From an uncultured Flavonifractor sp. (GTDB lineage Bacteria > Bacillota > Clostridia > Oscillospirales > Oscillospiraceae), in the NCBI RefSeq assembly GCF_944383115.1, contig NZ_CALWOJ010000003.1, positions 1 to 63,519 of the forward strand: 63,519 bases of DNA, given 5' to 3'. This document shows positions 3,089 through 19,331 of the stretch, piece by piece. Each line of letters starts with the position of its first letter. Positions within the stretch are counted from its first letter, which is position 1. The translations under genes and the position numbers were made by a program. The notes beneath the pieces were generated by a model. It had not been told where the DNA came from, searched no databases, and saw only the letters and a program-made list of their open reading frames with translations.

Positions 3089-3089
3089 C

Positions 3090-3160: not shown

Positions 3161-3883
3161 TCAGAACATCTTATATTCGTTTAAAGACAATGCGATATAA
3201 CTGATGAACGTATTGATATCAAATACGGGAATGTCCAGCTCCTCGCGAATACGGGCGGAATAAGGCGGCAGGTCGGTGCATTCCAGTACCACGGCGCCAA
3301 TGTCAGGATGTTCGCTCAGACCTTTGCGTACAACGCCGATCACCTCGTCAGTGACAGCGTCCAGGTCGAACTCCTCATTGGGGTGGGTATAGATCCTGCT
3401 CCACTCAGGCTGATCGTGCAGGCTGAGAATCACCAGATGCTCCCGGTCTACAATCTTGGCCCGCTGCAGATGTTCCTCCCGCAAATGGTGCTTGTTGGCA
3501 GTTAAAACCGCAACCTTACGGTTGGGGCCCACCATAGCCTGGACCAGGGGAACTTGCAGCAGGGAACTGGTAAACACCAGCTCAGGTACGGCGGCGGCCA
3601 GCCCCTCCTGGTAGTACGCAGTAAAGCCGCAGCTGGTGGTAATGGCTTTTACCCCCTGCGCCGCCAGGTCCTTGCATACTGCAATAAACTGATCAAGCAT
3701 CTCCTGGCAAGGGTTTTCTTCGATGGTGTCCATATTGGCGCCCTTTACGCGCACCATCATGATCTCAAAGGGATAGGAAGCGGGATTGGTGCTGTTGCCG
3801 GGCAGGGACTCCAGCTGGAGTTGAGCGGGCAAAACCTGCCCTTCCTCCCAACGCAGGATGCAAATCTTTGGTTTCTTTTCCAT
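3161..3883 (-). CDS. Aspartate/glutamate racemase-superfamily protein
   Basis: A 240-residue member of the Asp/Glu/hydantoin racemase superfamily, whose cofactor-free enzymes use two cysteines as acid and base. Both are present: C85 in ITTSCGFTAYYQ and C202 in VLECTDLPPYS. The start at 3883 has AAAGGAG and a 7-base spacer; the longer reading frame to 4006 has no ribosome site. Ahead of the gene, at 3921-3936, sits a TATATAC box matching those before the RpiB operon and the ABC importer, so it is probably controlled by the GntR regulator encoded divergently at 4293. Substrate is unknown: the superfamily also includes maleate isomerase, arylmalonate decarboxylase and hydantoin racemase. It lacks the second membrane or regulatory parts that would identify MurI, and the context argues for catabolism rather than cell-wall synthesis. 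Confidence 0.82.
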   Translation of the reverse strand: MEKKPKICILRWEEGQVLPAQLQLESLPGNSTNPASYPFEIMMVRVKGANMDTIEENPCQEMLDQFIAVCKDLAAQGVKAITTSCGFTAYYQEGLAAAVPELVFTSSLLQVPLVQAMVGPNRKVAVLTANKHHLREEHLQRAKIVDREHLVILSLHDQPEWSRIYTHPNEEFDLDAVTDEVIGVVRKGLSEHPDIGAVVLECTDLPPYSARIREELDIPVFDINTFISYIALSLNEYKMF

Positions 3884-3920
3884 AAAAGAACTCCTTTCTC
3901 TTTTTATTACGATTAAAGTT

Positions 3921-3936
3921 AACAGGTATATACAAG
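3921..3936. promoter_or_regulatory. Putative GntR operator (box 1)
   Basis: AACAGGTATATACAAG, 38 bases upstream of the racemase ATG. The core GGTATATACA matches 10871-10880 and 13661-13670. Palindromic TATATA-centred boxes are usual for HutC-type GntR regulators, and the regulator gene starts 350 bases away. No clear -35/-10 pair was recognised beside it. Confidence 0.6.
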
Positions 3937-4163
3937 AGATTCTCGGGGCATTTTCTGTATAAATATTTGGTTGCAATTTGGAACATTGACCCCTATAAGA
4001 CCTCAAAACATTTGGTATTCAGATGTTTGCTGGTTCTGCACAAAAAAGAAATGCATATGGCAAGAATGAATATATAACCATTATTTTTTGGTTTATGGAG
4101 GTGCTATAAAGAGATTTTCGATATGTGAGTTATTAATATACGACAAATTTCTTTCTAAAACAC
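3937..4163. other. AT-rich intergenic region, no gene seen
   Basis: Part of the 409-base gap between the divergent racemase and GntR genes. It is AT-rich with many stop codons in all frames. Apart from the operator at 3921-3936 and the promoter at 4164-4192 I see no conserved structure. Confidence 0.5.
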
Positions 4164-4192
4164 TTGAATCCGGTCGGAAAATCATGTAAAAT
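4164..4192 (+). promoter_or_regulatory. Promoter of the GntR regulator gene
   Basis: TTGAAT (4164-4169) and TAAAAT (4187-4192) with a 17-base spacer. The leader to the ATG at 4293 is about 95 bases. No TATATAC box overlaps it, so autoregulation is not evident. Confidence 0.6.
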
Positions 4193-4292
4193 TACTTCTA
4201 TAACACCGAATACTACATATGATTTGCTGTTTATATTTTTACGGTATCGCGCAGGGTGAATACTAATTTTTTCCTTGGGAGGTCGTAAGATT

Positions 4293-5033
4293 ATGGATTG
4301 TGGTACGCTGTCTGCACTTGATAAGACCAATGCCACGCCCCTGCATATCCAGATTGAGGAGTCAATCCTGCAAAAATTGGAATCTAAGGAATGGACACCC
4401 GGAAAATTGATCCCCTCGGAAAACGAACTAAGTCAGATTTACGGCGTGAGCCGCACCACGGTACGCAATGTGATTACCAAGTTGGTGCAGGAGGGGCTTC
4501 TGTTTCGGATTCCTGGCAAGGGGACCTACGTGGCTGAACCGAAAATTGTGGCCCATTCCTTGTCTTATGCCGGCATCCGGGAGCAGCTGGAGAAGCTGGG
4601 ATATGAAGTAACGACGCAGCTGCTCTCACTGAATTTAGAAACTGCAAATCAGAAGATCCTTCAGTATTTCTATGGCCTGGATGATCCGCATTTTTATGTG
4701 GTTCGCCGCCTGCGGCTTCTAAAAGGGGAGCCTTTGAGCATCCATATTTCCTACTTACCTCAGGCTTATTGCCCCGGCATTGATCAGCATGATTTGAGCA
4801 GGGAACAATTATGTACGGTATTGAGCAGGGAATACGGTTTAAACCGCGCCAAGACAATCGAGACATTGGAATCTGTGGCAGCTAAGCCTGCGGAAGCGTC
4901 GCTTCTGCATATTTTCCCCAGCCAGCCCCTGTTGCTTTTGCAGGATCAGATCCTGGATGCCGATGGTCGTACCTTTGAATACAGCAAGGTGGTTTTCCGG
5001 GGCGAAAAGATTAAAATTACGATGGAGATCTGA
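4293..5033 (+). CDS. GntR-family regulator, HutC subfamily (UTRA domain)
   Basis: A 246-residue transcription factor. Residues 13-80 form the winged helix, with the typical ENELSQIYGVSRTTVRN recognition helix and RIPGKGTYV wing. Residues 95-240 form a UTRA ligand domain, which in this subfamily binds small sugars, sugar phosphates or amino acids and releases DNA. Start at ATG 4293 with GGGAGGT and a 9-base spacer, rather than the upstream TTG at 4275 that overlaps the ribosome site. It lies between the racemase gene and the convergent kinase of the minus-strand operon. I infer that it controls the boxes at 3921, 10871 and 13659, so that one effector governs enzyme and importer units together; no other regulator gene lies in the island. 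Confidence 0.92.
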   Translation: MDCGTLSALDKTNATPLHIQIEESILQKLESKEWTPGKLIPSENELSQIYGVSRTTVRNVITKLVQEGLLFRIPGKGTYVAEPKIVAHSLSYAGIREQLEKLGYEVTTQLLSLNLETANQKILQYFYGLDDPHFYVVRRLRLLKGEPLSIHISYLPQAYCPGIDQHDLSREQLCTVLSREYGLNRAKTIETLESVAAKPAEASLLHIFPSQPLLLLQDQILDADGRTFEYSKVVFRGEKIKITMEI

Positions 5034-5096
5034 GTGTTGCCGGGAGATTCACCCGGGATGATTCTACCTCAGCCGGAACAGCATATCGGAATCATG

Positions 5097-5131
5097 AAAG
5101 AGGGCACCTCATTGGGGTGCCCTCTTTCCTC
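5097..5131. terminator. Bidirectional terminator between GntR gene and kinase operon
   Basis: Arms AAAGAGGGCACC (5097-5108) and GGTGCCCTCTTT (5116-5127), T-rich on the plus side and A-rich at the left edge, so it can serve both convergent units. Confidence 0.85.
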
Positions 5132-5140
5132 TTTGTCGAT

Positions 5141-6211
5141 TCAGCGTTTTACGCGAGCGGAACCGCCGTTCATCACGTCGTAAGCCTCTTCCGTGGTGAC
5201 CAGGTTCCAGTCATTGCGGATGGTGTGGCACAGGGCCGAATAAGCGGCGGCAAAGTCGATGCATTCCTGCTCGGGCTTCCCCTCCAACAGGCACCAGATC
5301 AGACCGGAAGCGAAGGAATCGCCGCCGCCCACACGATCATAGATCTCAATATTCATATACTTGCGGGAGACATAGTAGCCGTTGCGGGTCATCATGACGC
5401 ACTGCCAGTTGTTCAGGCAGGCAGAGGTGACCTCACGCAGAGAATTGCCCACCACTTGAACGTTGGGGTACTTTTCCATGACCTTCTCGGCAACCTTTTT
5501 ATAGCACATGGGGTCGATCTTGGAATAATTCTCATCGGTGTTTTCGGCTTTGATGCCCAGCATGGTCTCAAAGTCCTCCTCGTTGCCGATGATAACGTCG
5601 ATGTAGGGCATCAGTTCAACCATTGCGGCCTGGGCTGCTTCTTTGCTCCAAAGGGTATGGCGGTAATTGAGGTCAAAAGAAGTGGTGGCGCCGTTCTGCT
5701 TTGCAGCTTTCAGCGCGGCCAGAACCTCGGTAGCGGTGTGTTCACCCACGGCAGTTACAATACCGGTGGAGTGGAACCAACGGGTATCCAGCACCTTTGC
5801 CCAGTCGATGTCGCCGGGCTGGATGCGGGAGACGGCGGAGTGACCGCGGTCATAGGTCTGATAACTGGGGCGGGGGCCAATGCCAACTTCGATAAAGCAT
5901 TTGCCGTTGCGGCCATTGCGGCCGATTTTGTCGTAGGGCTCCACCACCACGTTGGACATATCCACAGCATGCATCTGGGCGTGTTTGATAATGTAGTCGC
6001 CGTCCCAGGCATCCACAAGCTTGGTCACATAAGCGGTTTTCAGCGTGGGTTTCAGAAGTTTGCGGCTCAGATTGGAGATGTTGACGCAGCAGTTCAGCTC
6101 CGCGGCTGCAATGCCGAGCTGCAGCTCCTCAGCCTGACCCAGGCGGTCATGTCCGGGGGGTGTAAAACGTACCATTGCCTCGCCGAAGCTCATAAAATCA
6201 TACTTGGCCAT
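5141..6211 (-). CDS. PfkB-family sugar kinase, 2-dehydro-3-deoxygluconokinase-like
   Basis: A 356-residue ribokinase-fold kinase. The start region (YDFMSFGEAMVRFTPP) resembles KDG kinases, and the second PfkB signature is clear: VGGGDSFASGL with the catalytic base at D298. Residues 92-106 contain an Arg/Asn/Gly-rich insert (IGRNGRNGKCF) in the substrate lid region. It is longer than usual KDG kinases (about 310-340). Start at 6211 with GGAGGA and a 7-base spacer; the ATG at 6226 lies ahead of that site. It is the last gene of the rpiB-like, transketolase, transaldolase-like, aldolase operon. The substrate may be a 2-keto-3-deoxy acid or another ketose; phosphorylation would feed the aldolase or the transketolase/transaldolase pair. 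Specificity is inferred, the kinase family is certain. Confidence 0.88.
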   Translation of the reverse strand: MAKYDFMSFGEAMVRFTPPGHDRLGQAEELQLGIAAAELNCCVNISNLSRKLLKPTLKTAYVTKLVDAWDGDYIIKHAQMHAVDMSNVVVEPYDKIGRNGRNGKCFIEVGIGPRPSYQTYDRGHSAVSRIQPGDIDWAKVLDTRWFHSTGIVTAVGEHTATEVLAALKAAKQNGATTSFDLNYRHTLWSKEAAQAAMVELMPYIDVIIGNEEDFETMLGIKAENTDENYSKIDPMCYKKVAEKVMEKYPNVQVVGNSLREVTSACLNNWQCVMMTRNGYYVSRKYMNIEIYDRVGGGDSFASGLIWCLLEGKPEQECIDFAAAYSALCHTIRNDWNLVTTEEAYDVMNGGSARVKR

Positions 6212-6266
6212 ATTTCTCTCCTCCATTTAAAATAATGATTATAATAATTGGATAGGACCTCGCAAC

Positions 6267-7163
6267 TTAGCTGAACAGGCCAAATCCTTTCAACTTGGCT
6301 TCCAGGGCTTCTTTCTCCTCTGCGGTCAGGGGCAGCAGAGGCAGTCTGGGGTCGCCGCCTACCAGGCCGTTCATATCCATAGCAGCCTTGACCGCCGCTA
6401 CACCGCCGGCGCCGCCGATGGCGCGGTTTATCTCCAGCAGGCGGGTATTGAGGGCAATGGCCTCCGGATACTTTTTCTCCTCCAGAAGGTGGAACAGCTC
6501 CACGGTTATTTCAGGGAAGCTGTTGGCAAGGGACAGAACACCGCCGGAACCGCCCATCGTTATAGCGGCAAAGAAGTTATTGACAGAGCCTGCCACCACA
6601 GTGAAGCCGGGCTTGTCCTTTACGGCAAACAGAATATTTTCCATATTGCCGGTGGAGCTGTCCTTTACACCAACAATATTGGGGTGATCGGCGCAGCGAC
6701 GGATCAGCTTCGGGCTCAGCCCTACGCCGCCGGCATACTGGGGCGCATTGTATACCAGGCAGGGAACAGAGACTGCGTCTGCTACGTCAGAGAAGTAGCG
6801 CAGGAGAACATCGTCTGTCATCTGCTTTTTAAAATAGCAGGGCGGCAGCAAAGTCAGGAAATCTGCGCCGCGCTTGCACATCTCCAGGCCCATCTCGATG
6901 CTCTCTGCGGTGGACTCAAAGATACAGCCCGACATGACGGTCTGATCTGCGCCCTTGTTCTGGATGATGGTTTCCAGCACAAGGAGCTTCTCCTTGTTGG
7001 ACAGGCTCTTGTTTTCGCCGTTGGAGCCCAGGGCCAGATAGCCCTTCAGACCGGCGGCCGCATAGCGTTTTACATTTTTGGCCAGCCCCTCATAATCCAC
7101 CTGGCCGTCATGGGTAAAAGGAGTGGAAATAGGAGCGAATACCCCCGTCAACTTTTTTTCCAC
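6267..7163 (-). CDS. Dihydrodipicolinate synthase/KDG aldolase-family lyase
   Basis: Class I (Schiff-base) aldolase of the DapA/NanA superfamily, 298 residues. The lysine K167 in GVKDSSTGN and the tyrosine Y138 in LVYNAPQYAGG are in place, as is the substrate loop ALGSNGENKSLS at 44-55. True lysine-biosynthetic DapA would have a GTTGE loop and neighbours of the lysine pathway; here the neighbours are a KDG-kinase-like gene and a pentose-phosphate set, so a sugar-acid aldolase that splits a 2-keto-3-deoxy acid to pyruvate and an aldehyde is more likely. Start is a GTG at 7163 with GGGAGA 8 bases ahead; the ATG at 7171 is out of frame. Only 20 bases separate it from the upstream transaldolase-like gene. 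Confidence 0.88.
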   Translation of the reverse strand: MEKKLTGVFAPISTPFTHDGQVDYEGLAKNVKRYAAAGLKGYLALGSNGENKSLSNKEKLLVLETIIQNKGADQTVMSGCIFESTAESIEMGLEMCKRGADFLTLLPPCYFKKQMTDDVLLRYFSDVADAVSVPCLVYNAPQYAGGVGLSPKLIRRCADHPNIVGVKDSSTGNMENILFAVKDKPGFTVVAGSVNNFFAAITMGGSGGVLSLANSFPEITVELFHLLEEKKYPEAIALNTRLLEINRAIGGAGGVAAVKAAMDMNGLVGGDPRLPLLPLTAEEKEALEAKLKGFGLFS

Positions 7164-7183
7164 AGTTCACATCTCCCGTCTTT

Positions 7184-8530
7184 TTATTTTTTACGATCGT
7201 TATTGACGGCATTCATAAAGCGTCTCTGATAGGACACCACCTGGTTGGTGCTTGTAAAGCGAGCCAGGTACTGGGGTTCAGCGGTGATGACAAGACGATC
7301 CACCATATCGGCGTATTCGGGATCAGCCATCAGATTATCAATATCGGGATAGTTGTAGTCGCCCTCCATAGAGCAAATGATCAGGCGGGTATCAGGCAGG
7401 TTATTCTGACGCAGCAGGCGCAGGTTGTGACGCACGCCGTCCAGACCATCGGAGCCTTCGGGATTATTGAAGTTGCGATAGGCAAGCGTGTCCTTGGCGA
7501 TACGCAGGACCTCCAGCAGATCGCAGTCAGCTTCGTTTTTGGCCAGCATGTCGGCAGCCAGCATTTCCTTGCGCAGTTCCTCAAGATATTTGCGGTCGCC
7601 GGTCATCTCATAGAAGCCCAGCAGGCGCTGGAAAACGGCGGAGAGTTTGGCGCGGTGACGCACAAAGCTGTTGATAAAATAAGGCTTGGCCTGCAGAGCC
7701 AGCGCGGTCTGATAGGGTTCAAACATCAAAGTATAATTGATGCGGTAACCATGCTCCCGCAGCTTCAGAGCCAGATTGTGGCCGCGCAGAGCGTCCTCGG
7801 TGGAACACTGGTTGTAACGGGTGGAGAAGCGCTTGTCGCCCTCCAGCAGCTCGTGGACGTTATCGGCATTCACAGGACCGGTATGAGGTACCTTGACGAC
7901 CAGACGATACTCGGAGAGCAGCTCTTTAAACGCCTCGCACTCCTCCAGGATCTTATTGAAATCTTTCTCAAAGGGGTTGTTCAGCTCAACGCTGATATCG
8001 CAGCCGGGACCAAGGATACGACCCAGCTCACCCATGACTTCTTCTCTGGTTTTAAACAGCCCGCCCACGTTGCATTCAGGATTGTTGATGAACAGGTCAT
8101 ATACGATGCCGGGGTTGCAGGTCAGGTTACCCAGCAAAGGAGCAATGGGCGCCACTTCGTAAGGATTGGCGGAGTCGGCGGAGAAAATCATCCTGGTGGG
8201 GCGCTTCATGCCGTTCTTATCGTAAGAGATATCCCGCACCAAGTCAATCTCCAACAGGCCGTCAGGCTGCAGAGTACTCTCAATGCGGAAGCCCGCGGGC
8301 GTTTCGCCGGCAGGCACATTGAACACCTTGATCACATCGCGGAAGCGAGGGGTCACACCGATATACTTGACGACGCCGTTGAGCAGCTCATACTGCTCGG
8401 CGGTCAGAGACAGGTCCTTTACGCGGGCGACGTAATCTTCATCATTGCGGGCGGCGGGCGCATTTAAGGTACACAGAGGGAAGTGTACATTCAGCGTTCC
8501 TTCACCCTTGGAGCGGTAGTTGACGGTCAT
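7184..8530 (-). CDS. Large transaldolase-like protein
   Basis: 448 residues. The C-terminal two thirds read like the transaldolase/fructose-6-phosphate aldolase barrel: DISVELNNPFEKD, then VVKVPHTGPVN with the likely Schiff-base lysine, then INYTLMFEPYQTALALQ and YFINSFVRHR, which parallel the VKIP, NVTLIFS and SPFVGR motifs of the family. About 200 N-terminal residues are additional and not recognised, so it is twice the size of TalC/FSA. It sits between the transketolase pair and the DapA-type aldolase, so a three-carbon transfer or cleavage of an unusual ketose is plausible. The start at 8530 has GGGAG with a normal spacer. Family assignment rests on motif reading by eye; a structure prediction would settle whether the lysine sits on strand 4 or 6. 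Confidence 0.7.
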   Translation of the reverse strand: MTVNYRSKGEGTLNVHFPLCTLNAPAARNDEDYVARVKDLSLTAEQYELLNGVVKYIGVTPRFRDVIKVFNVPAGETPAGFRIESTLQPDGLLEIDLVRDISYDKNGMKRPTRMIFSADSANPYEVAPIAPLLGNLTCNPGIVYDLFINNPECNVGGLFKTREEVMGELGRILGPGCDISVELNNPFEKDFNKILEECEAFKELLSEYRLVVKVPHTGPVNADNVHELLEGDKRFSTRYNQCSTEDALRGHNLALKLREHGYRINYTLMFEPYQTALALQAKPYFINSFVRHRAKLSAVFQRLLGFYEMTGDRKYLEELRKEMLAADMLAKNEADCDLLEVLRIAKDTLAYRNFNNPEGSDGLDGVRHNLRLLRQNNLPDTRLIICSMEGDYNYPDIDNLMADPEYADMVDRLVITAEPQYLARFTSTNQVVSYQRRFMNAVNNDRKK

Positions 8531-8592
8531 AATATATTCTCCCTTCTTTCTGCGCGCTTCGGCGGCAGGATCGATCTTTTGCTAGTCCGGTT

Positions 8593-9540
8593 TTATTTTG
8601 TTTCTGATGCGGATGTATTCAGCGCCGCGGCGATGCGTTTGGCTGCTTCCTCCCCGGATAAGCCATAGAAAGCCAGAAGTTCATCATAGGGGCCGGTATT
8701 TTTGGCGCCTTCAGGTACTGCCAGCATATGAAGGGGCACGCCCGCACCCGCCTGAGCCAGCACCTCGGCCACTGCGGAACCCAGCCCGCCTGTGGGTATA
8801 TGCTCTTCCAGCGTAAAGACTGCTCTTTTTCCCTTGGCGTGGGCCAGAACGGCTTCGGCATCCAGAGGCTTGATGGTGGTAAAATTCAAAACGGATAAAG
8901 AAGTCCCGGACTCGCTCAGGATCCGACAGGCTTTCATGGCCTCCTCGGCGCTGGGGCCATAGGTGTACAGGGCGCCGTCAGTGCCTTCGCTGAGAACTTC
9001 TGCTTTGCCCAGTTTCATAGAGCGCGGGCCGTCTACCGGGGCGCTGCGCGCCTGACGGGGCATCCGAATGTAGACGGGACCATCGGCTGCAATCGCCTGT
9101 TCCAGACAGAACTCCACTTCATCTGCGTCGCCAGGGGCCAGAACCGTCAGATGCGGAACAGAACGCATCAGCCCCACATCCTCAACCGCAATATGGGTGG
9201 AGCCCAGGGTGGAATAGGCCAGGCCGCCGCCGGAACCAACGATGATCACCTTGCTGTTCATATAGCCCAGATCATCACGCACCTGCTCATAAGCGCGCAT
9301 GGTAAGGAACGGGTTGATGATGACCAGAACGGGCAGCAGGCCCTGGCGTGACAGGGCGGCACACAGGCTCACCGCGTTCTGCTCACTGATGCCCACCTCG
9401 ATACTGCGCTCGGGGAATTCCTGAAAAAAGGCGCTCAGACCGCCGCCGGCACAGGAATCGCAGGACACTGCCACAATGCGCTTGTCCTCTCGCCCCAACT
9501 CCACCAACTTCATTTCAAATGCTTTTCTGGGATCGTTCAT
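8593..9540 (-). CDS. Transketolase, C-terminal subunit
   Basis: The pyrimidine-binding and C-terminal domains of transketolase as a separate 315-residue chain; it works with the N-terminal subunit from the next gene upstream. GISEQNAVSLCAALS contains the glutamate that activates thiamine diphosphate, followed by the family stretches THIAVEDVGLMRSVP and VYIRMPRQ and a C-terminal domain near TLEEHIPTGGLGSAV. Start at 9540 with AAAGGGG and a 9-base spacer; this ATG overlaps the stop of the N-subunit by 4 bases (ATGA), as expected for an equimolar pair. Two-gene transketolases are common in Firmicute catabolic clusters and often act on unusual ketoses rather than in the housekeeping pentose pathway. 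Confidence 0.95.
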   Translation of the reverse strand: MNDPRKAFEMKLVELGREDKRIVAVSCDSCAGGGLSAFFQEFPERSIEVGISEQNAVSLCAALSRQGLLPVLVIINPFLTMRAYEQVRDDLGYMNSKVIIVGSGGGLAYSTLGSTHIAVEDVGLMRSVPHLTVLAPGDADEVEFCLEQAIAADGPVYIRMPRQARSAPVDGPRSMKLGKAEVLSEGTDGALYTYGPSAEEAMKACRILSESGTSLSVLNFTTIKPLDAEAVLAHAKGKRAVFTLEEHIPTGGLGSAVAEVLAQAGAGVPLHMLAVPEGAKNTGPYDELLAFYGLSGEEAAKRIAAALNTSASETK

Positions 9541-10379
9541 TCCAGCCAACCCCTTTCTGCCGCCACAGAATCCAACTCTGCCAGGGCCTGATCCGCACTC
9601 TCCCTGGAGGGATTCCAATGATGATACTTTGCCTGATCCTCCAGGAAGGAGATACCCTTGCTTTTGATGGTCTTTGCTACGATGATGGAAGGCTTACCCG
9701 CCTCAAATGGAGCTGCAGCCAGAGCATCGTACAGGGCGCCCACATCGTTGCCCGCCACAGAGCGAACGGACCAGCCAAAGGAGGTATAGCGACCTTCAAA
9801 GTCGGTAGGCTTGCAGACCTCGCTGGTGCGGCCGTTGATTTGCAGCGTGTTTTCATCCAGAATGGCCACCAGATTGTCCAGCTTTTTGTGTGCGGCAAAT
9901 GCGGCGGCCTCCCACAGGCTGCCCTCGCCCTGCTCGCCGTCTCCCATCAGTACATAGGTGCGATAACTTTCGCCCTGGAGCTTGGCGGCCAGGGCGTAGC
10001 CGCAGCCCAGAGGCAGTCCGTGCCCCAGGCTTCCGGTAGAGAAATCCAGGCAGGGAAGCTTGGTGGCATCGGGATGACCAGGGAAGCGGGTGCCCAATTT
10101 GTTATACGTTTTCAGTTCTGCTTTATCTATGGCGCCTATTTCTGCCATGACACCGTACAACGCCAGGCATTTGTGTCCTGCACTGAGGATGAATTTGTCC
10201 CGGTGCTGGAGATCCTGGGGTGAGTAGTTCATGATCGCCCCATACAATACAGCAATGGCATCCGCAGCAGACAGGGCCCCGCCTACATGGCCTTCGCCAT
10301 TGGTGGCAATGGTAGAGACCACATTGCGGCGAATATTGAAAGCCAAACGCTCCAACTCTTCACGATTAAATGGTTTCAT
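9537..10379 (-). CDS. Transketolase, N-terminal (thiamine diphosphate) subunit
   Basis: 280-residue PP-binding domain. The ThDP/metal motif is MGDGEQGEGSLWEAA, ending in LDENTLQ. The early His motif is GHVGGALSAAD, where most transketolases have GHPGG, so one proline is replaced by valine near the active site. GSLGHGLPLGCGYA is the next conserved stretch. It follows the RpiB-like gene by 12 bases and overlaps the C-subunit by 4 bases. The pair transfers a two-carbon ketol unit between sugars. Together with the isomerase and the transaldolase-like gene this makes a compact carbon-rearranging module. Confidence 0.95.
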   Translation of the reverse strand: MKPFNREELERLAFNIRRNVVSTIATNGEGHVGGALSAADAIAVLYGAIMNYSPQDLQHRDKFILSAGHKCLALYGVMAEIGAIDKAELKTYNKLGTRFPGHPDATKLPCLDFSTGSLGHGLPLGCGYALAAKLQGESYRTYVLMGDGEQGEGSLWEAAAFAAHKKLDNLVAILDENTLQINGRTSEVCKPTDFEGRYTSFGWSVRSVAGNDVGALYDALAAAPFEAGKPSIIVAKTIKSKGISFLEDQAKYHHWNPSRESADQALAELDSVAAERGWLE

Positions 10380-10391: not shown

Positions 10392-10832
10392 TTAGTTTTC
10401 AGCCTCAATCTGGCGGAGATGTGCTACCTTGGCGGCAGAGGCGCTGCTGGGGTCAAACTTTAGCGGCAACCATTGGCGCACAATCTCTTCGGCGGTTTTC
10501 ATGCCGATTACAAGCGCACCCAGGCACAAAATGTTTCCGTCATTGGAGAGGATCATGCGCTGGGCGGAGTAGATATCGTGGCAGACAGCAGCATAAGCGC
10601 CTTTGACCTTGTTGGCGCTCATCGCCATGCCGATACCGGTGCCGCAGATTAAAATACCCCGCTCACACGCGCCTTCCGCCACCAATTTTGCCACCTTTTC
10701 TGCAATGCCGGGATAGCTGACAGGCTCTGTATCAAAGGAGCCCACGTCCACATACTCGTTTTCGGGGAATGTCTTCATGATCATTTGCTTATAGGACAGT
10801 CCATGCTGATCGTTGCCGATCGCAATTTTCAT
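10392..10832 (-). CDS. RpiB/LacAB-family sugar-phosphate isomerase
   Basis: 146 residues, the standard size for RpiB. The active-site stretch is ILICGTGIGMAMSANKV with the catalytic cysteine, then AAVCHDIYSAQRM with the conserved His. The N-terminus is MKIAIGNDQHG, where RpiB usually has GxDHAG; the shift of the histidine from DHxG to DQHG is a small deviation that may mark altered specificity. First gene of the minus-strand operon; the start at 10832 has GGAGGA. The family covers ribose-5-P, allose-6-P and galactose-6-P isomerases as well as tetrose isomerases of erythritol and sulfosugar routes. The operator box at 10871-10880 lies 39 bases upstream. Confidence 0.9.
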   Translation of the reverse strand: MKIAIGNDQHGLSYKQMIMKTFPENEYVDVGSFDTEPVSYPGIAEKVAKLVAEGACERGILICGTGIGMAMSANKVKGAYAAVCHDIYSAQRMILSNDGNILCLGALVIGMKTAEEIVRQWLPLKFDPSSASAAKVAHLRQIEAEN

Positions 10833-10870
10833 CGTGCTTCCTCCTCCTATTGTTTATGACATGCTTAACC

Positions 10871-10880
10871 TGTATATACA
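10871..10880. promoter_or_regulatory. Putative GntR operator (box 2)
   Basis: TGTATATACA, a perfect 10-base palindrome placed at the downstream edge of the -10 region of the minus-strand operon. It shares the TATATACA core with boxes at 3921 and 13659. Confidence 0.7.
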
Positions 10881-10908
10881 AGGTAGCCTATTAGGAGGAA
10901 AAAGTCAA
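10880..10908 (-). promoter_or_regulatory. Promoter of the rpiB-like/transketolase operon
   Basis: On the complement, TTGACT (10903-10908) and TACCTT (10880-10885) with a 17-base spacer; the -10 is weak and abuts the operator, as for a repressed promoter. Confidence 0.5.
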
Positions 10909-11028: not shown

Positions 11029-11056
11029 TTGACTTTTGCGCAAATGTATCTATGAT
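11029..11056 (+). promoter_or_regulatory. Promoter of the aconitase X unit
   Basis: TTGACT (11029-11034) and TATGAT (11051-11056) with a 16-base spacer. The palindrome ATGTACAT at 11073-11080, just after the expected start, resembles the half-sites of TATGTAC-AGCA-GTACATA at 13697-13714 and may be a second kind of operator. Confidence 0.65.
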
Positions 11057-11149
11057 AGACTAATAAAGAGACATGTACATACTAGAATACAGCTGTTGTG
11101 CAGGACGATGTTACATGAGTGGACAGGTAATGAAAGGAGATTGCACCAT

Positions 11150-12469: not shown

Positions 12470-12896
12470 GCATAAAATCATAAAGGGACGTCCTGCCTGG
12501 GGCCCTGTGGTCGAAGGCTATGCGTTTGTCTGCCCCGACAGCATTGTGGGGTGGAATGGTGTGGATGTAAAGACGGGTACGGTTACGGAAAAGAGTAATG
12601 TCCACTATGGCGATAGTTTTGCCGGCAAGATTATTGTGCTGCCCTGCAGCCGCGGCTCACTGGGTTGGTCCGATATGTTCCGCAACAGCGAGTACAACGG
12701 TGTTGGCCCCAGCGGTTACATCTTTACCACAATGGATTCCAAGTGCGGTACAGCGATCTTTAACACCAGGCGACCCTGTGTGGCTGATTTTCCTGCAGAT
12801 TGTGATCCCTGCGTGGAGATCCATGACGGAGATTATATTAGGCTGGACGGTATTAACGGCACGGTAGAAATTTTGGTGCCGGCCGAAAATAACTGA
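12462..12896 (+). CDS. Aconitase X, small (swivel) subunit
   Basis: 144 residues, DUF126/AcnX swivel domain, which closes over the active site of the large subunit. KIIVLPCSRGSLGWSDMF contains the expected PxxRGS active-site serine loop. Overlaps the large subunit stop by 8 bases; GGGAGG lies 12 bases ahead of ATG 12462. In archaea and many bacteria the two parts are separate as here, in others fused. The tight overlap and order support an obligate heterodimer. It is followed 21 bases later by the RidA gene. Confidence 0.9.
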   Translation: MSEHKIIKGRPAWGPVVEGYAFVCPDSIVGWNGVDVKTGTVTEKSNVHYGDSFAGKIIVLPCSRGSLGWSDMFRNSEYNGVGPSGYIFTTMDSKCGTAIFNTRRPCVADFPADCDPCVEIHDGDYIRLDGINGTVEILVPAENN

Positions 12897-12917: not shown

Positions 12918-13307
12918 ATGATGGAATTTGAAAAGGAAAAGGTTTATACCCCCCTGGCGGCTACTCCCACCCACAATGTCTCCCAGGCGGTCAAATACGG
13001 AAATCTGGTGTTTGTCTCCGGCATGGTTGGCGAAGATGAAAACGAGGTCCTGAAAGAGGGCCTGGAAGCTCAGTGTGAGCAGGCCTTTATTAACATGAAA
13101 AATGTGCTGGAAGCGGCAGGGTCTGGTTTGGAGAAGGTGCTGTTCTGCCAGATTTTTATTGCCAAACGGGAAGACCGGGCCATTGCGAACAAGGTATGGG
13201 ACCGCTTCTTCCTGAACATGGAGGTGGGCCCCGCCAGATACACGGTCGTGGCCCCCACGGTTGCCGAACCCTATCTGTTTGAAATTACCTGCATTGCCGG
13301 CGTGTAA
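12918..13307 (+). CDS. RidA (YjgF/UK114)-family imine deaminase
   Basis: 129 residues with the family landmarks NLVFVSGMVG, the conserved arginine in ARYTVVAP and the terminal glutamate in FEITCIAGV, which together bind the carboxylate of 2-imino acids. RidA proteins hydrolyse reactive enamines or imines to keto acids and ammonia. The gene follows the AcnX pair by 21 bases. This is suggestive, because a known AcnX reaction (dehydration of cis-3-hydroxy-L-proline) gives a cyclic imine or enamine; a nitrogen-containing substrate for this island would explain RidA, the racemase-type enzyme and a peptide-type importer together. That link is inference. Two tandem ATGs (12918, 12921) leave the exact start open by one codon. 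Confidence 0.9.
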   Translation: MMEFEKEKVYTPLAATPTHNVSQAVKYGNLVFVSGMVGEDENEVLKEGLEAQCEQAFINMKNVLEAAGSGLEKVLFCQIFIAKREDRAIANKVWDRFFLNMEVGPARYTVVAPTVAEPYLFEITCIAGV

Positions 13308-13649
13308 TCTCCGGCTGCGCCCTTTGCTTTGATCATGTCGTGGTCTGAGCGGTTTGGCGTGGAACATTAAACGGGTAGTGAAAAATAGAAAGTCTCTGCG
13401 GCCGGCAGCCTACAGGCTGCCGGCCGCATTTTATGCCGGGGATTTTCTTGAGATCTTCCGGCTGGAGCCTGATTGCCGGACAGCGATTTTGCTTGGTTCA
13501 AACAATACTGTCATGGGGATACGGTTACAGATAAGTGGATATTGCTATATATTTCACAATCTCCTTTTGTAAATTTAGCGGATGTGCCCATATTGCTTAT
13601 CACATTTTTGTGGTAACAGACAATTTTTGAAAACAGCAATTTACTTCAC
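13308..13649. other. Intergenic region with terminator, no gene seen
   Basis: 440 bases separate RidA from the importer genes. It holds the terminator at 13398-13434 and then AT-rich DNA leading to the next promoter. A 72-codon open frame (13354-13572) crosses the terminator, has no ribosome site and is not called. Confidence 0.6.
13398..13434 (+). terminator. Intrinsic terminator after RidA
   Basis: Perfect 13-base arms GCGGCCGGCAGCC / GGCTGCCGGCCGC (13398-13410 and 13415-13427), 4-base loop, then ATTTTAT. Confidence 0.9.
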
Positions 13650-13679
13650 TTGACAATGCTGTATATACAGGTATATAGT
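13650..13679 (+). promoter_or_regulatory. Promoter of the ABC importer with embedded operator (box 3)
   Basis: TTGACA (13650-13655) and TATAGT (13674-13679, 18-base spacer) or TATATA (13672-13677, 16 bases). The perfect palindrome CTGTATATACAG (13659-13670) fills the spacer, so a bound GntR protein would block polymerase. A second inverted repeat, TATGTAC-AGCA-GTACATA, lies at 13697-13714 near the transcription start. Confidence 0.78.
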
Positions 13680-13747: not shown

Positions 13748-15316
13748 ATGAAGAAAAGGTTTATCTCTCTACTCATGTCCATGCTGATGCTGGCCGCTGC
13801 CCTGACGGGCTGTGCCGGCGGCGGCGAGTCCAGCGGTGGGAGCGAGAACACGGTAACCCTTCGCAACACCGCAGCCCTGACCACCAGCGACCCCAACCAA
13901 ACCACCAATACCCATGAGTACACTGTTTTTGAGAACATTTATGAAGGCCTGTACGATTTGAATGAGGCTACCGGCGGTTACGACCTGCGGCTGGCTGAGA
14001 AGGTGGAGGCCAACGAAGATGTAACGGAATATATCGTGACCTTGCGGAAGGACGTCAAGTTCCACAACGGCGAGACCATGACGGCTGATGATGTTGTGTT
14101 CAGCTATGAGATGGCTCAGAACAGCCCCAAGCAGGCCTCCTTTGTCCGCCCGCTGGATCATGTTGAGAAGGTTGACGATTACACCGTCAAAATTGTTTTG
14201 AATCAGCCCTTCTCTCCCATCGGCCACATGCTCTTCAAGGTAAAGATTCTGTCCCAGAAAGAGGTCACTGAGCAGGGCGATGATTTTGGCAAGATCGCCA
14301 ACAAGGCCGGTACCGGCCCTTACATGTGGGATGAGGAGAACTACAATCCTCTGACCTCCTGGAGCGCGGTTGCTTTTGAGGATTATTACCGCGGCAAGGC
14401 CAAGATCGACCGAATTGTCTGGAATGTCATTGAGGATGATACCTCTGCCATTACTGCTCTGCAGAATGGTGAAATTGACTACATGATCGTTCCCATTTCT
14501 TACTGGGAGGACATCAAGAGTTCCGACAAGTTCACCTGCGTTGAGAAGGAGTCCAACGAGGTCATGACCTTCTGCATCAACATCGAGTCCAAGAACTATG
14601 GCTCGGTTCTACAGAATGACCTGGTGCGTGAGGCCATTATGTACGCCATCGATCGCGATGCCGTCAACCAGCTGGTGTGCGATGGCTACGGCACCCCCAC
14701 CTATATGTACATCAACCCCAACTACGCTGCCGCGGCTCCCACTGCCGACTCTCTGGAGAACCCCATCCCCTTCGATCTGGAGAAGTCCAAGGCGCTGCTT
14801 GCCGAGGCCGGCTATCCTGACGGCGTTGACGTCGGTGAGTTCCTGGCCGCTGCGGGCCGCAATGAGAGCTACGCCATTGCCATTCAAGCTCAGCTGGAGG
14901 CTGCCGGTATCCGGTCCACGCTGGTGGTTCAGGACTACTCCGTTGCCGGTGACCGCCTGGTTGCACAGGAATACGATCTGGCCATGGCTTATGACTGCGG
15001 CAACTACGACTTCAATAACTTCGAGCAGCAGTGTGCTTCCGCGTCCGTTGGCATTAAGAACTGCGTATTTGACGGCCCTGCCGGCAAGTTCAACGAGCTG
15101 TCCGATCAGTTTGACGCTTGGCTGCAGGAAGGCGCCTCTACGGCTGATGAAGAGGAGCGTATTGCGATCTATACCGAGCTGTACAACGCGTTCTATGACA
15201 CCCACACCCTGACGCCGGTAATTGTCATTCCTTCCTGTATTGCTTATAATAAGGATTTGGATGCTGTTGCTGTTCCCACCGACTATCGTGTCTACGACTG
15301 GAGCTGGAAGGCCTAA
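13748..15316 (+). CDS. ABC importer substrate-binding lipoprotein, dipeptide/oligopeptide type
   Basis: 522-residue SBP family 5 protein (DppA/OppA/NikA fold). Signal peptide with lipobox LTGCAGGG; the lipid-anchored cysteine is C22. A Gly/Ser linker follows, then the mature domain with FENIYEGLYDL, VTLRKDVKFHNGETMTADDVVFSYE and GTGPYMWDEENYNPLTSW, all typical landmarks. AAGGAGGAGG precedes ATG 13748. It has its own promoter carrying operator box 3, and a hairpin terminator lies between it and the permeases, which would raise binding-protein output over the membrane parts. Family members carry di- to oligopeptides but also oligosaccharides, opines and glycosylated amino acids, so the substrate here is open. 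Confidence 0.94.
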   Translation: MKKRFISLLMSMLMLAAALTGCAGGGESSGGSENTVTLRNTAALTTSDPNQTTNTHEYTVFENIYEGLYDLNEATGGYDLRLAEKVEANEDVTEYIVTLRKDVKFHNGETMTADDVVFSYEMAQNSPKQASFVRPLDHVEKVDDYTVKIVLNQPFSPIGHMLFKVKILSQKEVTEQGDDFGKIANKAGTGPYMWDEENYNPLTSWSAVAFEDYYRGKAKIDRIVWNVIEDDTSAITALQNGEIDYMIVPISYWEDIKSSDKFTCVEKESNEVMTFCINIESKNYGSVLQNDLVREAIMYAIDRDAVNQLVCDGYGTPTYMYINPNYAAAAPTADSLENPIPFDLEKSKALLAEAGYPDGVDVGEFLAAAGRNESYAIAIQAQLEAAGIRSTLVVQDYSVAGDRLVAQEYDLAMAYDCGNYDFNNFEQQCASASVGIKNCVFDGPAGKFNELSDQFDAWLQEGASTADEEERIAIYTELYNAFYDTHTLTPVIVIPSCIAYNKDLDAVAVPTDYRVYDWSWKA

Positions 15317-15486: not shown

Positions 15487-16425
15487 ATGCATCGATATAT
15501 TATCAAACGCCTGTTGTTCCTGATCCCCACCGTGCTTGGTGTTACCTTGATTATCTTCATTGTTATGAATGTTACGCCCGGCAACCCCGGTCGAATGATT
15601 CTGGGACCCAACGCTACTGCGGCGGAGGTCGAGGCAATGAACGAGGAGCTGGGCTATAATGATCCCATTTTGGTGCGTTGGTTTAACTATCTGAAAGATA
15701 TTGTTACCAAGGGCAGCTTTGGACAATCCTATTCCACCAAGCGGGATGTTCTGGAAGAACTCTGGCCTCGTTTTTTGGTTACCTTACGACTTGCTATTTT
15801 AGTTCTTACATTATCAGTTTGTATAGGCGTCCCATTGGGAATTCTATCTGCAGTAAAACAAAATTCGCTGATGGATACGATCCCTACAATGATTGCCTTC
15901 TTCTTAGCGGCGGTACCAAGCTTCGTTGTAGGTATAGTACTAATGTATATATTTGCCTTAAAGTTAGGCTGGTTCCACTCCTACGGCCTAAAATCTGTGT
16001 CAGACTATGTGCTGCCTGTGGTTTCGGCAACGATCTGTGAGCTGTCGGCCTATCTGAGGTTTACCAAGTCCTCCATGCTGGAGGCCATTCGCCAGGACTA
16101 TGTCCGCACTGCCCGTGCCAAAGGCGTTGCTGAGCGTACAGTCATCTGGAAGCATGCGCTGAAGAATGCGCTGCTGCCTGTGGTCACCTCCATTGGCATG
16201 CGTTTTGGCTGCCTGCTGGCCGGTATGGTTACCACGGAACAGCTGTTTTCCATCCCGGGCGTCGGTTCTCTGATCGTTGAGTCCATCAGCATGAAGGATG
16301 AACCCATGATCATCGGCTGTGCCGTTATGGTGTCCATCTGCTTCACTCTGCTGATGATCGGTGTTGACTTGATTTATGCCTTCATTGACCCGCGCATTCG
16401 GGCCAAGTACAGTAAGGGGGGTTGA
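15487..16425 (+). CDS. ABC importer permease 1 (DppB-type)
   Basis: 312-residue inner-membrane permease. It starts with the first transmembrane helix (YIIKRLLFLIPTVLGVTLI) and the family stretch NVTPGNPGRMILGPNAT. The cytoplasmic EAA loop that docks to the ATPase reads YVRTARAKGVAERTVIWKHA. About six helices. From roughly 15775 to 15980 the codon choice changes sharply to AT-ending codons (TTA, CTA, ATA, GTA), unlike the CTG/ATC-rich flanks, although the reading frame and protein family stay intact. Six bases separate its stop from the start of the next permease. Works with 16431, 17364 and 18357. Confidence 0.94.
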   Translation: MHRYIIKRLLFLIPTVLGVTLIIFIVMNVTPGNPGRMILGPNATAAEVEAMNEELGYNDPILVRWFNYLKDIVTKGSFGQSYSTKRDVLEELWPRFLVTLRLAILVLTLSVCIGVPLGILSAVKQNSLMDTIPTMIAFFLAAVPSFVVGIVLMYIFALKLGWFHSYGLKSVSDYVLPVVSATICELSAYLRFTKSSMLEAIRQDYVRTARAKGVAERTVIWKHALKNALLPVVTSIGMRFGCLLAGMVTTEQLFSIPGVGSLIVESISMKDEPMIIGCAVMVSICFTLLMIGVDLIYAFIDPRIRAKYSKGG

Positions 16426-16430
16426 CCTCA

Positions 16431-17339
16431 ATGGCAAAAAATTCTACCCGCCCCGTTGTGGCCACGCTCGATGGTGAGGACATCAACTTCAAGCGCCCCA
16501 GTCAGACCAAAGAGATCCTCCGCCGGTTGAGAAAGAACAAGGGCGCCATGATCGGCCTGTTTCTGCTCATCTGCATTGTTCTGGTGGTCATTTTCGCGGA
16601 TTTTATCGCCCCTTATGAAGCTGGCGTGGTTCAGGTCGCCGAAAACAAGCTGGCGCCCATGTCCCCGGAGCATCCGCTGGGCTGCGACAGCTATGGCCGT
16701 GATGTTCTCTCCCGTCTGGTACATGGCGCCCGCAACTCCCTGCTGGTGGCCGTGGCGGCTTCCATCAGTTCCTGCCTGTTTGGATGTACGCTGGGCGCCA
16801 TCGCCGGCTATTTTGGCGGAAAGATCGATATGCTGATCATGCGGGCGCTGGATATCTTCATGTCCATCCCCGACCTGCTGTTCACCATGGTGGTTGTGGC
16901 TGCCCTGAGTTCCAGCATTCCTGTACTGATCATCGCAATGACGCTGGCGTATTTTACAAACTACGTCCGACTAGTACGCTCCGGTGTTTTGAATCTGGTG
17001 GATCAAGAGTATGTTGAGGCTGCGCGTGCCGGTGGATCCAGTTCCGCCCGTATCATCATCAGCCACATCATACCCAACACGCTGGGCATCATCCTGGTCA
17101 ATGTAACCCTGAACGTTTCCAGCCTGGTGATCTATCAGTCTACCCTGAGCTTTATCGGACTGTCCCTGCCCGCTCCTGCGCCTGAGTGGGGTTCTATGTT
17201 GTCCAGTGCCCGTGTTGATATGATGCGCGCCCCCCTGCTGGTGGTATTCCCCGCACTGGCCATTGTTCTGACTGCTTTCTCCGTGAACCTGCTGGGTGAC
17301 GGCCTGCGCGATGCTATGGACCCCCGCCTGAAGAACTGA
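16431..17339 (+). CDS. ABC importer permease 2 (DppC-type)
   Basis: 302-residue partner permease. A cytoplasmic N-terminal tail ends in EILRRLRKNKGAMIGLFLL, the usual DppC entry into helix 1. HPLGCDSYGRDVLSRLVHGARNSL and YVEAARAGGSSSARIIISHI (EAA loop) are family landmarks. Start chosen at ATG 16431, with the GGGGGG run 9 bases ahead; the TTG at 16422 overlaps the previous stop. The C-terminus GDGLRDAMDPRLKN is the expected end. Forms the transmembrane heterodimer with the preceding product. Confidence 0.95.
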   Translation: MAKNSTRPVVATLDGEDINFKRPSQTKEILRRLRKNKGAMIGLFLLICIVLVVIFADFIAPYEAGVVQVAENKLAPMSPEHPLGCDSYGRDVLSRLVHGARNSLLVAVAASISSCLFGCTLGAIAGYFGGKIDMLIMRALDIFMSIPDLLFTMVVVAALSSSIPVLIIAMTLAYFTNYVRLVRSGVLNLVDQEYVEAARAGGSSSARIIISHIIPNTLGIILVNVTLNVSSLVIYQSTLSFIGLSLPAPAPEWGSMLSSARVDMMRAPLLVVFPALAIVLTAFSVNLLGDGLRDAMDPRLKN

Positions 17340-17363
17340 CACCGGCAGAAAGGAATTATCATC

Positions 17364-18353
17364 ATGAGTAACGCAGAAAAGATGCTGGACATTAAGGACT
17401 TGAGCGTTGTCTACAAAACGGATCTGGAGACGGTATATGCCGTCAATGGCGTCACACTTTCCTTGGAAAAGGGAGCTACGCTGGGCTTGGTGGGCGAGAC
17501 CGGCGCCGGAAAAACCACGCTGGCCCTGACGCTGATGCGCCTTCTGCCCGAGCGTACCGGTAAAGTGACCTCCGGTTCCATTACCTTCGAAGGTGAGAAC
17601 ATTATTGACCTGCCCGAGGCGCAGATGCGCAAGATCCGCGGCGACAAGATCGCCATGATCTTCCAGGACCCCATGACCTCCCTGAATCCGGTGCTGACGG
17701 TAGGCGAGCAGATCGCCGAGGCGCTGCTGGTTCATAATGAGGTAGGCCGCTCAAAAGAGGAGATAGAGGCCCGTGTTGATGAGACCCTGACCTTGGTGGG
17801 CATTCCCCCGGCCAGAAAGCGTGAGTACCCTCACCAGTTTTCCGGCGGGATGCGCCAGCGCGTGGTAATCGCCATCGCGCTGTCCTGCGAGCCCGATTTG
17901 CTGATTGCGGACGAGCCGACCACCGCTCTGGACGTTACCATTCAGGCACAGGTGCTGATGATGATCCGCGATCTGCGTGACCGGCTTGGTACCTCTATGA
18001 TTATGATTACCCATGATCTTGGTATTGTGGCGCAGACCTGTGATAATGTGGCTGTGATGTACGCCGGTGAGATCATCGAGCTGGGCACCGCCGAGGATAT
18101 CTTTGCTCACACCATGCACCACCCGTATACAGATGGTTTGTTTGCTTCTTTGCCGAATCTGAAGTCGAAAACAGCCCGCCTGCAGCCCATTACCGGCCTG
18201 ATGCCGGATCCCACCAATCTGCCCAAGGGCTGTAAATTTGCACCGCGCTGCAGCCGGTGCATGGAGATTTGCAAGGAAGTACCCCCGGAGGTCTATACCG
18301 AAGGTACGCACTCCATCCGATGCCATCTCTTTCACCAATCAAAGGAGAACTAA
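17364..18353 (+). CDS. ABC importer ATPase 1 (DppD-type)
   Basis: 329-residue ATP-binding subunit. Walker A is GETGAGKTT, the signature is [15 protein letters not shown], Walker B is [14 protein letters not shown], and the switch histidine lies in MIMITHDLG. The C-terminal oligopeptide-transporter extension contains the cysteine cluster [14 protein letters not shown], which in Dpp/Opp ATPases often holds an iron-sulfur cluster. AAAGGAA precedes ATG 17364. Partner of the ATPase 3 bases downstream. Confidence 0.96.
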
Positions 18354-18356
18354 GCT

Positions 18357-19331
18357 ATGGCAGAAGAAAGAATCCCTCTGATTGAGACCGTAGATCTGAA
18401 GAAGTATTTTAAAGTAGGTGATAATGCCCTCCTCCATGCGGTCGATGGTATCAATATGAAAGTGTATCCAGGTGAGACCATCGGTGTGGTTGGTGAGTCC
18501 GGATGTGGAAAGAGTACGCTGGGTCGTACCATTCTGCGTCTGATTGAGCCTACTTCCGGGCAGATCCTTTATAATGGTGACGATATTACCCAGTATAATG
18601 CCCGGCGGATGAAGAAAATGCGGCAGGAACTGCAGATTATTTTCCAGGATCCGTACGCAAGTCTTGATCCCCGTAAGTCTGTCATTGAGATCATAGCGGA
18701 ATATATGATCATCAATAAGACGCTGCCCACAAAGCGCGATATTTTTAACCGTGCGGCACATCTGATGGATGTAGTAGGCCTGGCCAGACGCTATGCCACA
18801 GCCTATCCCCATGAGTTGGATGGCGGGCGCCGGCAGCGCATCGGCATTGCCCGTGCGCTGTCCGTCAACCCCAAGTTTATCGTGTGCGACGAGCCTGTTT
18901 CGGCGCTGGACGTGTCCATCCAGGCGCAGATCCTCAACCTGCTGATGGACCTGCAGGATGAAATGTGTCTGACATACATGTTCGTGACCCATGACCTGAG
19001 CGTTGTAAAACATATTTCGGACAATATCATGGTCATGTACCTTGGTCAATGTCTGGAACTGACCAGTTCTGACGAGCTGTTCGAAAAGCCTCTGCATCCC
19101 TATACGCAGGCTTTGCTGTCTGCCATTCCGGAACCGGACATCTCCATGCGCAACAAGAAGATCAAGGTCATCAAAGGCGAGGTCGTCAGTCCGGTGAACC
19201 CGAAGCCCGGCTGTCGGTTTGCCGCCCGGTGTGAACACTGCCAGGAGCGGTGCCACCAGGAGGCTCCTGAGCTGAAGGAAGTTGCCCCCGGCCACTTTGT
19301 TGCCTGCCATCTTTGCGACGGTCCCATTTAA
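18357..19331 (+). CDS. ABC importer ATPase 2 (DppF-type)
   Basis: 324 residues. Walker [10 protein letters not shown]; Walker [15 protein letters not shown]. The signature reads [16 protein letters not shown], with LDGGR in place of the canonical LSGGQ; such a degenerate or altered signature in one of two ATPases makes the pair asymmetric. The C-terminal cysteine motif is [21 protein letters not shown] precedes the ATG at 18357, and the gene ends the operon ahead of the terminator at 19411. The preceding genes supply the binding protein and both permeases, so the importer is complete. Confidence 0.95.

Follow-up and report, generated by a model that had tools for sequence, protein, structure and literature searches.

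A tentative amino-sugar-acid regulon combining aconitase X, RidA and a sulfoglycolysis-like sugar operon on an apparently mobile island of an uncultured Flavonifractor sp.

In the bifurcated sulfofructose pathway of Faecalicatena, a split transketolase, an RpiB-type isomerase of the sulfoerythrulose isomerase kind and a transaldolase are encoded in a single induced cluster, and R-A-F-D-R is reported as the head-group set of the sulfofructose transketolase (PMC11659671). For the aconitase X (AcnX) enzymes of type II, the subclasses c to f are listed with neither landmark residues nor a function in the describing paper (PMC8184944). Here, we analyze a gene cluster from an uncultured Flavonifractor sp. 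(positions 3161 to 19331 of a 63,519-nucleotide stretch of contig NZ_CALWOJ010000003.1, hereafter the window) in which a transketolase/transaldolase operon stands next to genes for a two-subunit AcnX, a RidA-type protein, a racemase, a GntR-type regulator and an opp/dpp-type importer. Judged from its sequence, we tentatively read this cluster, with a confidence somewhat below even, as one catabolic regulon under GntR control, apparently mobile, whose substrate would be a small compound resembling an amino-sugar acid: a 2-amino-3-hydroxy acid that bears a polyhydroxy chain, as D-glucosaminate does.

The locus shares with the Faecalicatena pathway the clustering of the same enzyme kinds and the alteration of transketolase head-group residues at the same positions, but it differs from that pathway (PMC11659671) in its head-group set (R-G-I-G-R), in its remotely related, 448-amino-acid transaldolase-like protein (TAL), and in the addition of AcnX, RidA, the racemase and enzymes of the 2-keto-3-deoxygluconate (KDG) type. 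Its AcnX resembles the characterized enzymes in having two subunits, the three cluster cysteines of type II and the conserved active-site Glu and Ser, but it lacks their nitrogen-binding Asp and other landmark residues and lies in another gene context (PMC8184944). The kinase and aldolase families are those of the lower Entner-Doudoroff and De Ley-Doudoroff routes, and a galactonate dehydratase gene heads the related operon L055 (related loci and genomes are cited by our L and G numbers); unlike in these routes, the keto-deoxy acid is here proposed to come from AcnX and RidA, and the aldolase is of the dihydrodipicolinate synthase (DHDPS) type. Finally, the RpiB-like protein shares with the isomerase of Coccidioides immitis a Ser in place of the ring-opening His and a C-terminal SASA.K pattern, while the latter enzyme is fungal (PMC3212906). 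The gene set as a whole was not found described in the open-access literature searched, as judged by titles and the beginnings of abstracts, with subscription journals mostly outside that search.

Gene set and shared operator

All genes named in the initial annotation are present as open reading frames of plausible full length and in the order it gave, as confirmed by the open reading frame list and by profile searches (Table 1). The racemase gene (minus strand) and the GntR gene (plus strand) precede a minus-strand operon that runs from position 10832 down to 5141 in the order RpiB, transketolase N part, transketolase C part, TAL, DHDPS-family aldolase and KDG-type kinase; the plus-strand genes for the large and small AcnX subunits and for RidA follow, and beyond a hairpin lies the importer with its own promoter-like site.

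Four transcription units, those beginning with the racemase, RpiB, AcnX and lipoprotein (importer) genes, have a palindromic operator of the CTTGTATATACAAG type 5' of their first gene, at distances of about 40 bp, 37 bp, 65 bp and 77 bp, respectively. When searched in its 15-bp form (CTTGTATATACAGGT, up to three mismatches), it matches the 63.5-kb window six times, at four places, where 0.46 matches are expected, and none of 100 shuffles reached six; the same search yields seven matches at the four corresponding places in the related locus L036 (0.10 expected), so that the shared operators asserted previously are borne out. A single place, the RpiB site, was found in L037, where a weak site with three mismatches to the symmetric form precedes AcnX, and the AcnX and importer operators of the window (two of the four) likewise differ from symmetric CTTGTATATACAAG by three mismatches.

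Genome G206 retains AcnX, RidA, importer, GntR and racemase at 85-97% identity (94% for the small AcnX subunit), and its full operon for RpiB, both transketolase parts, TAL, DHDPS and kinase (63-87%) lies 46 kb distant from the AcnX operon. A KDG-type kinase remnant, comprising the last 146 residues at 82% identity, stands beside AcnX (L043, 370-786), and G206 seems to have lost an adjacent sugar operon, keeping the other copy 46 kb off. Seven sites with at most two mismatches occur in the G206 genome, six of them within the regulon. The displaced RpiB operon is preceded by two of these, importer, AcnX and racemase by one each, and the sixth lies some 194 bp away from the site at AcnX, which is the expected position of the lost sugar operon's own operator. 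One of the two sites at the displaced RpiB operon is also upstream of a HAD-type hydrolase gene (L045, 5936-6841) that is transcribed in the opposite direction and is a possible further regulon member.

Importer, AcnX, racemase and sugar operon most likely form one regulon, and we infer that the GntR protein binds these operators. Since the operator accompanies the sugar operon even 46 kb away in G206, co-regulation appears to be kept without linkage, and the sequence does not point to independent regulation of the two operons; this argument is qualified by the fact that the displaced operon has a GntR gene of its own (68% identity). Two control results speak against the regulon: the reversed control pattern gives nine matches in G206 versus seven for the operator, and in the cluster's own genome (G000) only two of five sites with at most two mismatches lie inside the cluster, the control giving one match.

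The transketolase, RpiB and TAL branch

The head-group set of the transketolases was read at human positions 318, 345, 389, 416 and 474. The ordinary phosphate set R-S-F-H-R is found in the human enzyme, in that of C. hydrogenoformans and in the other, likewise split, transketolase of the genome; the window enzyme and those of L036, L037 and G206 carry R-G-I-G-R, and the phosphate-orienting Ser and His are thereby lost. The R-A-F-D-R set, in which the place of the F is our assumption, is absent from the window and present in L048. These changed residues back the likeness to sulfosugar transketolase routes that had been noticed before.

The island RpiB has Ser for the ring-opening His and SASAAK for GGRH, while the second RpiB of the genome has both standard features. 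Its best solved relative is the C. immitis enzyme, which shares the Ser and the C-terminal pattern; the authors of that structure suspect a shorter-chain substrate, which is not proven (PMC3212906). We suspect the island RpiB to be of the short-chain type as well. TAL aligns Lys213 (Schiff base), Asp119 and Glu182 with the transaldolase residues, but it is only a distant relative (29.3 bits): when solved structures were searched with its profile, weak transaldolase matches alone were obtained, the best with an E value of 0.0072 and sulfofructose transaldolase with 0.27. Relatives of TAL occur in five of 300 family genomes and in three of 398 phylum genomes (its own, one at 70% and one weak match, E 3.2e-4), and no match was found among plasmid records. 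Two further candidates concerned phosphate binding. Its loss in the island RpiB was dropped as a claim, since the C. immitis enzyme binds phosphate via a similar Ser/Ser/Lys site; as to its loss in TAL, the sequences compared align poorly, and no claim is made.

RpiB, transketolase and transaldolase together make up the non-oxidative pentose phosphate set, and they might be extra enzymes for pentose or tetrose phosphate released by aldolase cleavage of a longer keto-deoxy acid phosphate (C7 or C8). Phosphate can be bound by the C. immitis RpiB, which is of the island type (PMC3212906), and no other transaldolase was found in the 89%-complete genome, so that TAL could serve ordinary metabolism; both points also count against the preferred amino-sugar-acid reading. 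We nevertheless consider such a pentose-phosphate role unlikely, given the second split transketolase and second RpiB with standard residues in the genome and the loss of the phosphate-orienting Ser and His from the island transketolase. Judged by its residues, the sugar operon is not what one would expect of duplicate pentose-phosphate enzymes.

Locus L048 (6762-17641, genome G196) is a further transketolase/TAL cluster: besides a TAL relative (53%), the split R-A-F-D-R transketolase and an RpiB, it encodes a glycerate kinase, a LarA-like hydroxyacid isomerase, a TIM-like protein and components of a TctA/TctB transporter. This glycerate kinase and the 2-hydroxyacid dehydrogenases of L055 offer a lead towards a uronate head group for the transketolase/TAL branch, a solution that would leave AcnX, RidA and the racemase unexplained.

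AcnX, RidA and the proposed substrate

Both chains of the AcnX score above the family cut-offs (PF04412, 298.6 bits with a cut-off of 31.5; PF01989, 50.3 bits with a cut-off of 27), and type II is indicated by the two chains and by Cys142, Cys323 and Cys382, which align to Cys110, Cys283 and Cys342 of TkAcnX. The large subunit retains Glu161 and Ser162, and Lys402, invariant in nine aligned sequences, should be the active-site Lys by its spacing; the Tyr that comes after this Lys in solved AcnX enzymes appears to be replaced by Gly406, a position beyond the printed alignment. RidA carries Arg107, which aligns in 2csl and whose position we take to be that of the catalytic Arg of RidA imine deaminases; its score is under the TIGR00004 cut-off. 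The residues of the characterized AcnX enzymes are missing: Cys48 replaces the Asp ligand of the cis-3-hydroxyproline nitrogen (chain numbering 10 above that of PMC8184944), and the score for the cis-3-hydroxyproline-type equivalog is 171.5 of 700 bits. The small subunit has Ser68-Leu69-Gly70, the invariance of Ser68 suggesting equivalence to the Ser described there. Overall, the window AcnX fits the description of type II subclasses c to f in that paper.

The close AcnX clade is rare. It was found in three of 300 family genomes at at least 72% identity, the next match being at about 34%, and a pattern scan of one genome per species (84,980 species) gave six loci at 64-93%. Matches at E 1e-60 or better occur in three of 391 class genomes (its own and two at 38-40%). 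Plasmid records with a match number 159, none of them reaching 60% identity (27-31% among the 15 listed). Distant AcnX pairs (38-41%) in G1065 (L062 and L063) adjoin BCCT transporters and MttB proteins; L062 includes a RidA family protein, and in L063 an Asp/Glu racemase directly follows AcnX and a corrinoid protein is present. AcnX may thus also act in betaine breakdown.

AcnX neighbourhoods were compared in eight genomes, comprising the scan loci, the window and G206, with L038 and G236 counted once (both 163,695 bases). RidA adjoins AcnX or stands one gene apart in six of the eight, which supports the earlier view that RidA points to nitrogen, as do the RidA family protein and the Asp/Glu racemase near the distant AcnX pairs of L062 and L063, and a KDG-type kinase is found in the AcnX locus of five, the G206 remnant included. 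The association of AcnX with the RpiB/transketolase pair, for which a neighbourhood search had been advised, holds in part: the whole sugar operon lies beside AcnX in three of the eight genomes and elsewhere in G206, the rest having no adjacent full operon. In L038, the genes for large and small AcnX subunits (72% identity) and RidA are followed by a KDPG aldolase (above the TIGR01182 cut-off) and a KDG-type kinase (583 of 700 bits). Locus L055 of G505 (2701-9172) lines up a galactonate dehydratase (338 bits, above the cut-off of 311), a 2-hydroxyacid dehydrogenase, TAL (70%), DHDPS, a second 2-hydroxyacid dehydrogenase and a KDG-type kinase, so that TAL, DHDPS and kinase occur on this 11.6-kb contig without AcnX. 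With E values of at most 1e-60, the DHDPS clade was found in three of 300 family genomes, all three of which also carry TAL. Two different dehydratases hence seem to feed one lower part, with a 2-keto-3-deoxy acid as the common intermediate, and such an acid is probably the product of AcnX and RidA. As RidA suggests an enamine/imine intermediate, the substrate would be a 2-amino-3-hydroxy acid, i.e., an amino-sugar acid.

The initial annotation had favoured a glycated or sugar-linked amino acid, which would be imported and split, its amino-acid half going to AcnX and RidA and its sugar half to RpiB, transketolase and TAL. The presence of both nitrogen-related and sugar-related genes in one regulon would suit such a conjugate, as would the best solved relative of the binding lipoprotein, AgaA (2.4e-31), an opine-binding protein. 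YliB, however, scores nearly as high (5.4e-31), and the two do not discriminate specificity; moreover, profile searches recognized no deglycase, hydrolase or opine-splitting enzyme in 3161-19331, and in L038 the KDG-type genes come straight after AcnX and RidA. The specific proposal of a conjugate is not supported and appears quite unlikely, while the neighbourhoods favour a 2-keto-3-deoxy acid product and hence an amino-sugar acid. The module is coherent and unusual; an amino-sugar acid would account for most of the observations, and a glycated amino acid for fewer of them.

For such an amino-sugar acid, the opp/dpp-type importer would take up the compound, the Asp/Glu-type racemase would set the configuration at C2, the two-subunit AcnX would remove the 3-hydroxyl group with its Fe-S cluster (a reaction type taken from the family, the substrate being conjectural), and RidA would hydrolyze the enamine/imine to ammonia and the 2-keto-3-deoxy acid, as the neighbourhoods suggest. 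Going by their families, the kinase would phosphorylate this acid and the DHDPS-type aldolase would form pyruvate and an aldehyde phosphate. In a parallel, sulfoglycolysis-like branch, modelled on residues and analogy, RpiB, the split transketolase and TAL would act on a ketose with an odd head group, whose C2 and C3 units would be transferred to glyceraldehyde 3-phosphate. A still more specific version is rather doubtful: here AcnX and RidA would dehydrate and deaminate 2-amino-3-hydroxy sugar acids with an Fe-S cluster and no pyridoxal phosphate, and the ketose of the second branch would have as its head group the carboxylate or amino-acid terminus of that substrate.

It should be noted that several observations weigh against the proposed pathway. 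RidA, kinase and aldolase score under every curated NCBIfam cut-off; the best KDG kinase equivalog scores are 331 of 700 and 181 of 440 bits, the nearest solved relative by sequence being a KDG kinase. The TAL-DHDPS-kinase group of G505 occurs without transketolase or RpiB on its contig, so that the branch is not always complete. L040 and L041 have AcnX, no RidA or KDG gene being found in their available sequence (L040 is a short contig), and they carry other transporters, namely an amino-acid permease and a citrate-type transporter, respectively. In L040 (1663-3801), the close AcnX (70%) lies downstream of a nitrilase-type amidase and the amino-acid permease, with no adjacent RidA.

A sulfosugar (sulfoquinovose-type) pathway is very improbable: although its enzyme kinds are those of the bifurcated Faecalicatena route and the related L048 transketolase has the matching residues, the set of the window is R-G-I-G-R and cannot be the sulfonate set seen in Faecalicatena, no sulfoquinovosidase, sulfoquinovose isomerase or sulfonate-aldehyde reductase was recognized by profile searches in 3161-19331, and AcnX, RidA and racemase would stay idle. 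Ordinary cis-3-hydroxyproline utilization beside an unrelated sugar operon is hardly credible in view of the equivalog score, the replacement of the nitrogen ligand by Cys48 and the operators common to AcnX and the sugar operon.

The island and its wider meaning

The cluster is apparently carried on a mobile island that splits a polysaccharide deacetylase gene (Table 1). The ends of the insert are imperfect inverted repeats alike at 22 of 26 positions, which none of 2000 shuffles reached, and a large serine recombinase is encoded inside. The deacetylase gene is continuous in the congener loci L085 and L087, whereas its parts in the window (2472-3036 and 34136-34390) are about 31.1 kb apart. 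The AcnX clade, TAL and the DHDPS clade were not found in the five congeners searched (G022, G118, G182, G232, G271), four of which gave a weak match of about 60 residues to the AcnX query. G1073, seen from the left end, has the deacetylase gene interrupted at an identical position; it shares the left-end sequence but carries different cargo, first a GH42 beta-galactosidase, which makes the site a possible hotspot for catabolic cargo. The cluster stretch has a G+C content of about 50-55% per 3 kb versus about 60-64% in the flanks. A simple insert is called into question by the restriction of low G+C to 3.5-19.5 kb and by the counterpart of window 32026-32666, which is reversed beside the deacetylase gene in L087 (83.5%); the right part may therefore be rearranged native DNA. 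The assembly is a fragmented draft of 162 contigs.

Table 1. Positions of the cluster genes, regulatory sites and island features in the window.
Feature	Position	Strand	Evidence or remark
Insert splitting polysaccharide deacetylase gene	3034-34135		end repeats 3041-3066 and 34115-34140
Asp/Glu/hydantoin-type racemase, two cysteines (Cys85, Cys202)	3161-3883	-	NF005679 230.4 bits (cut-off 231); PF01177
Operator, racemase promoter	3923-3936		kept in L036
GntR/UTRA (HutC-type) regulator	4293-5033	+	PF00392, PF07702; under all NCBIfam cut-offs
Terminator-like hairpin	5096-5128		between convergent GntR and kinase genes
PfkB kinase, KDG-kinase-like	5141-6226	-	PF00294; 2afb KDG kinase 1.2e-66
DHDPS-family aldolase (KDG/4-hydroxy-2-oxoglutarate type)	6267-7163	-	PF00701
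Large transaldolase-like protein (TAL), Asp119/Asn139/Glu182/Lys213	7184-8530	-	PF00923 29.3 bits (cut-off 27)
Transketolase C part	8593-9537	-	head-group set R-G-I-G-R
Transketolase N part, thiamine diphosphate-binding	9537-10379	-	PF00456
RpiB-like isomerase, suspected short-chain type	10392-10832	-	PF02502
Operator, RpiB operon	10869-10882		matching place in L036
Promoter-like site, AcnX operon	11029-11056	+	10/12 matches
Operator, AcnX operon	11072-11085		3 mismatches to symmetric form; matching place in L036
AcnX large subunit	11150-12469	+	PF04412; Cys142, Cys323, Cys382
AcnX small (swivel) subunit	12462-12896	+	PF01989
RidA-type protein	12918-13307	+	TIGR00004 63.6 bits (cut-off 106.25); Arg107 aligned to 2csl
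Terminator-like hairpin 3' of RidA	13397-13428	+	14 pairs
Promoter-like site, importer	13650-13679	+	11/12 matches; operator (13658-13671) within
Family 5 substrate-binding lipoprotein	13748-15316	+	
opp/dpp-type permeases	15487-16425, 16434-17339	+	
opp/dpp-type ATPases	17364-18353, 18357-19331	+	
Large serine recombinase, inside insert	30196-31653	-	PF00239, PF07508, PF13408

The racemase reading frame as listed starts at 4006, the likely start being 3883; its two cysteines are conserved in L036, and its structural model (pLDDT, a per-residue model confidence, of 73.7) has a hydantoin racemase as best fold match. The best solved relatives of the DHDPS-family aldolase are a 4-hydroxy-2-oxoglutarate aldolase and YagE. 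Promoter-like sites number 28 in the region against 13.3 expected, any single site being weak evidence. The adjoining high-G+C DNA (19475-28769) encodes a NagA-type deacetylase, a 2-hydroxyacid dehydrogenase, a class II aldolase, an ascorbate-type phosphotransferase system (IIB, IIC, IIA), an EI-like protein and a regulator of the PRD type, which may together form another system for amino sugars; the operator pattern scan of the window found no site of the AcnX/RpiB regulon there.

If the amino-sugar-acid reading is true, it would provide a function for an AcnX of the sort listed without one in PMC8184944, the transketolase/transaldolase logic of sulfoglycolysis would have been adapted to another head group, and gut Oscillospiraceae would have a nutrient that has been overlooked, in all probability an amino-sugar acid, which they use via a mobile element. 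The compact regulon and its visible operator make the substrate directly searchable via the binding protein and the repressor. Should the more specific, rather doubtful version hold, the cluster would represent a new way to dismantle sugars with an odd terminal group, carried on a mobile island of gut bacteria.

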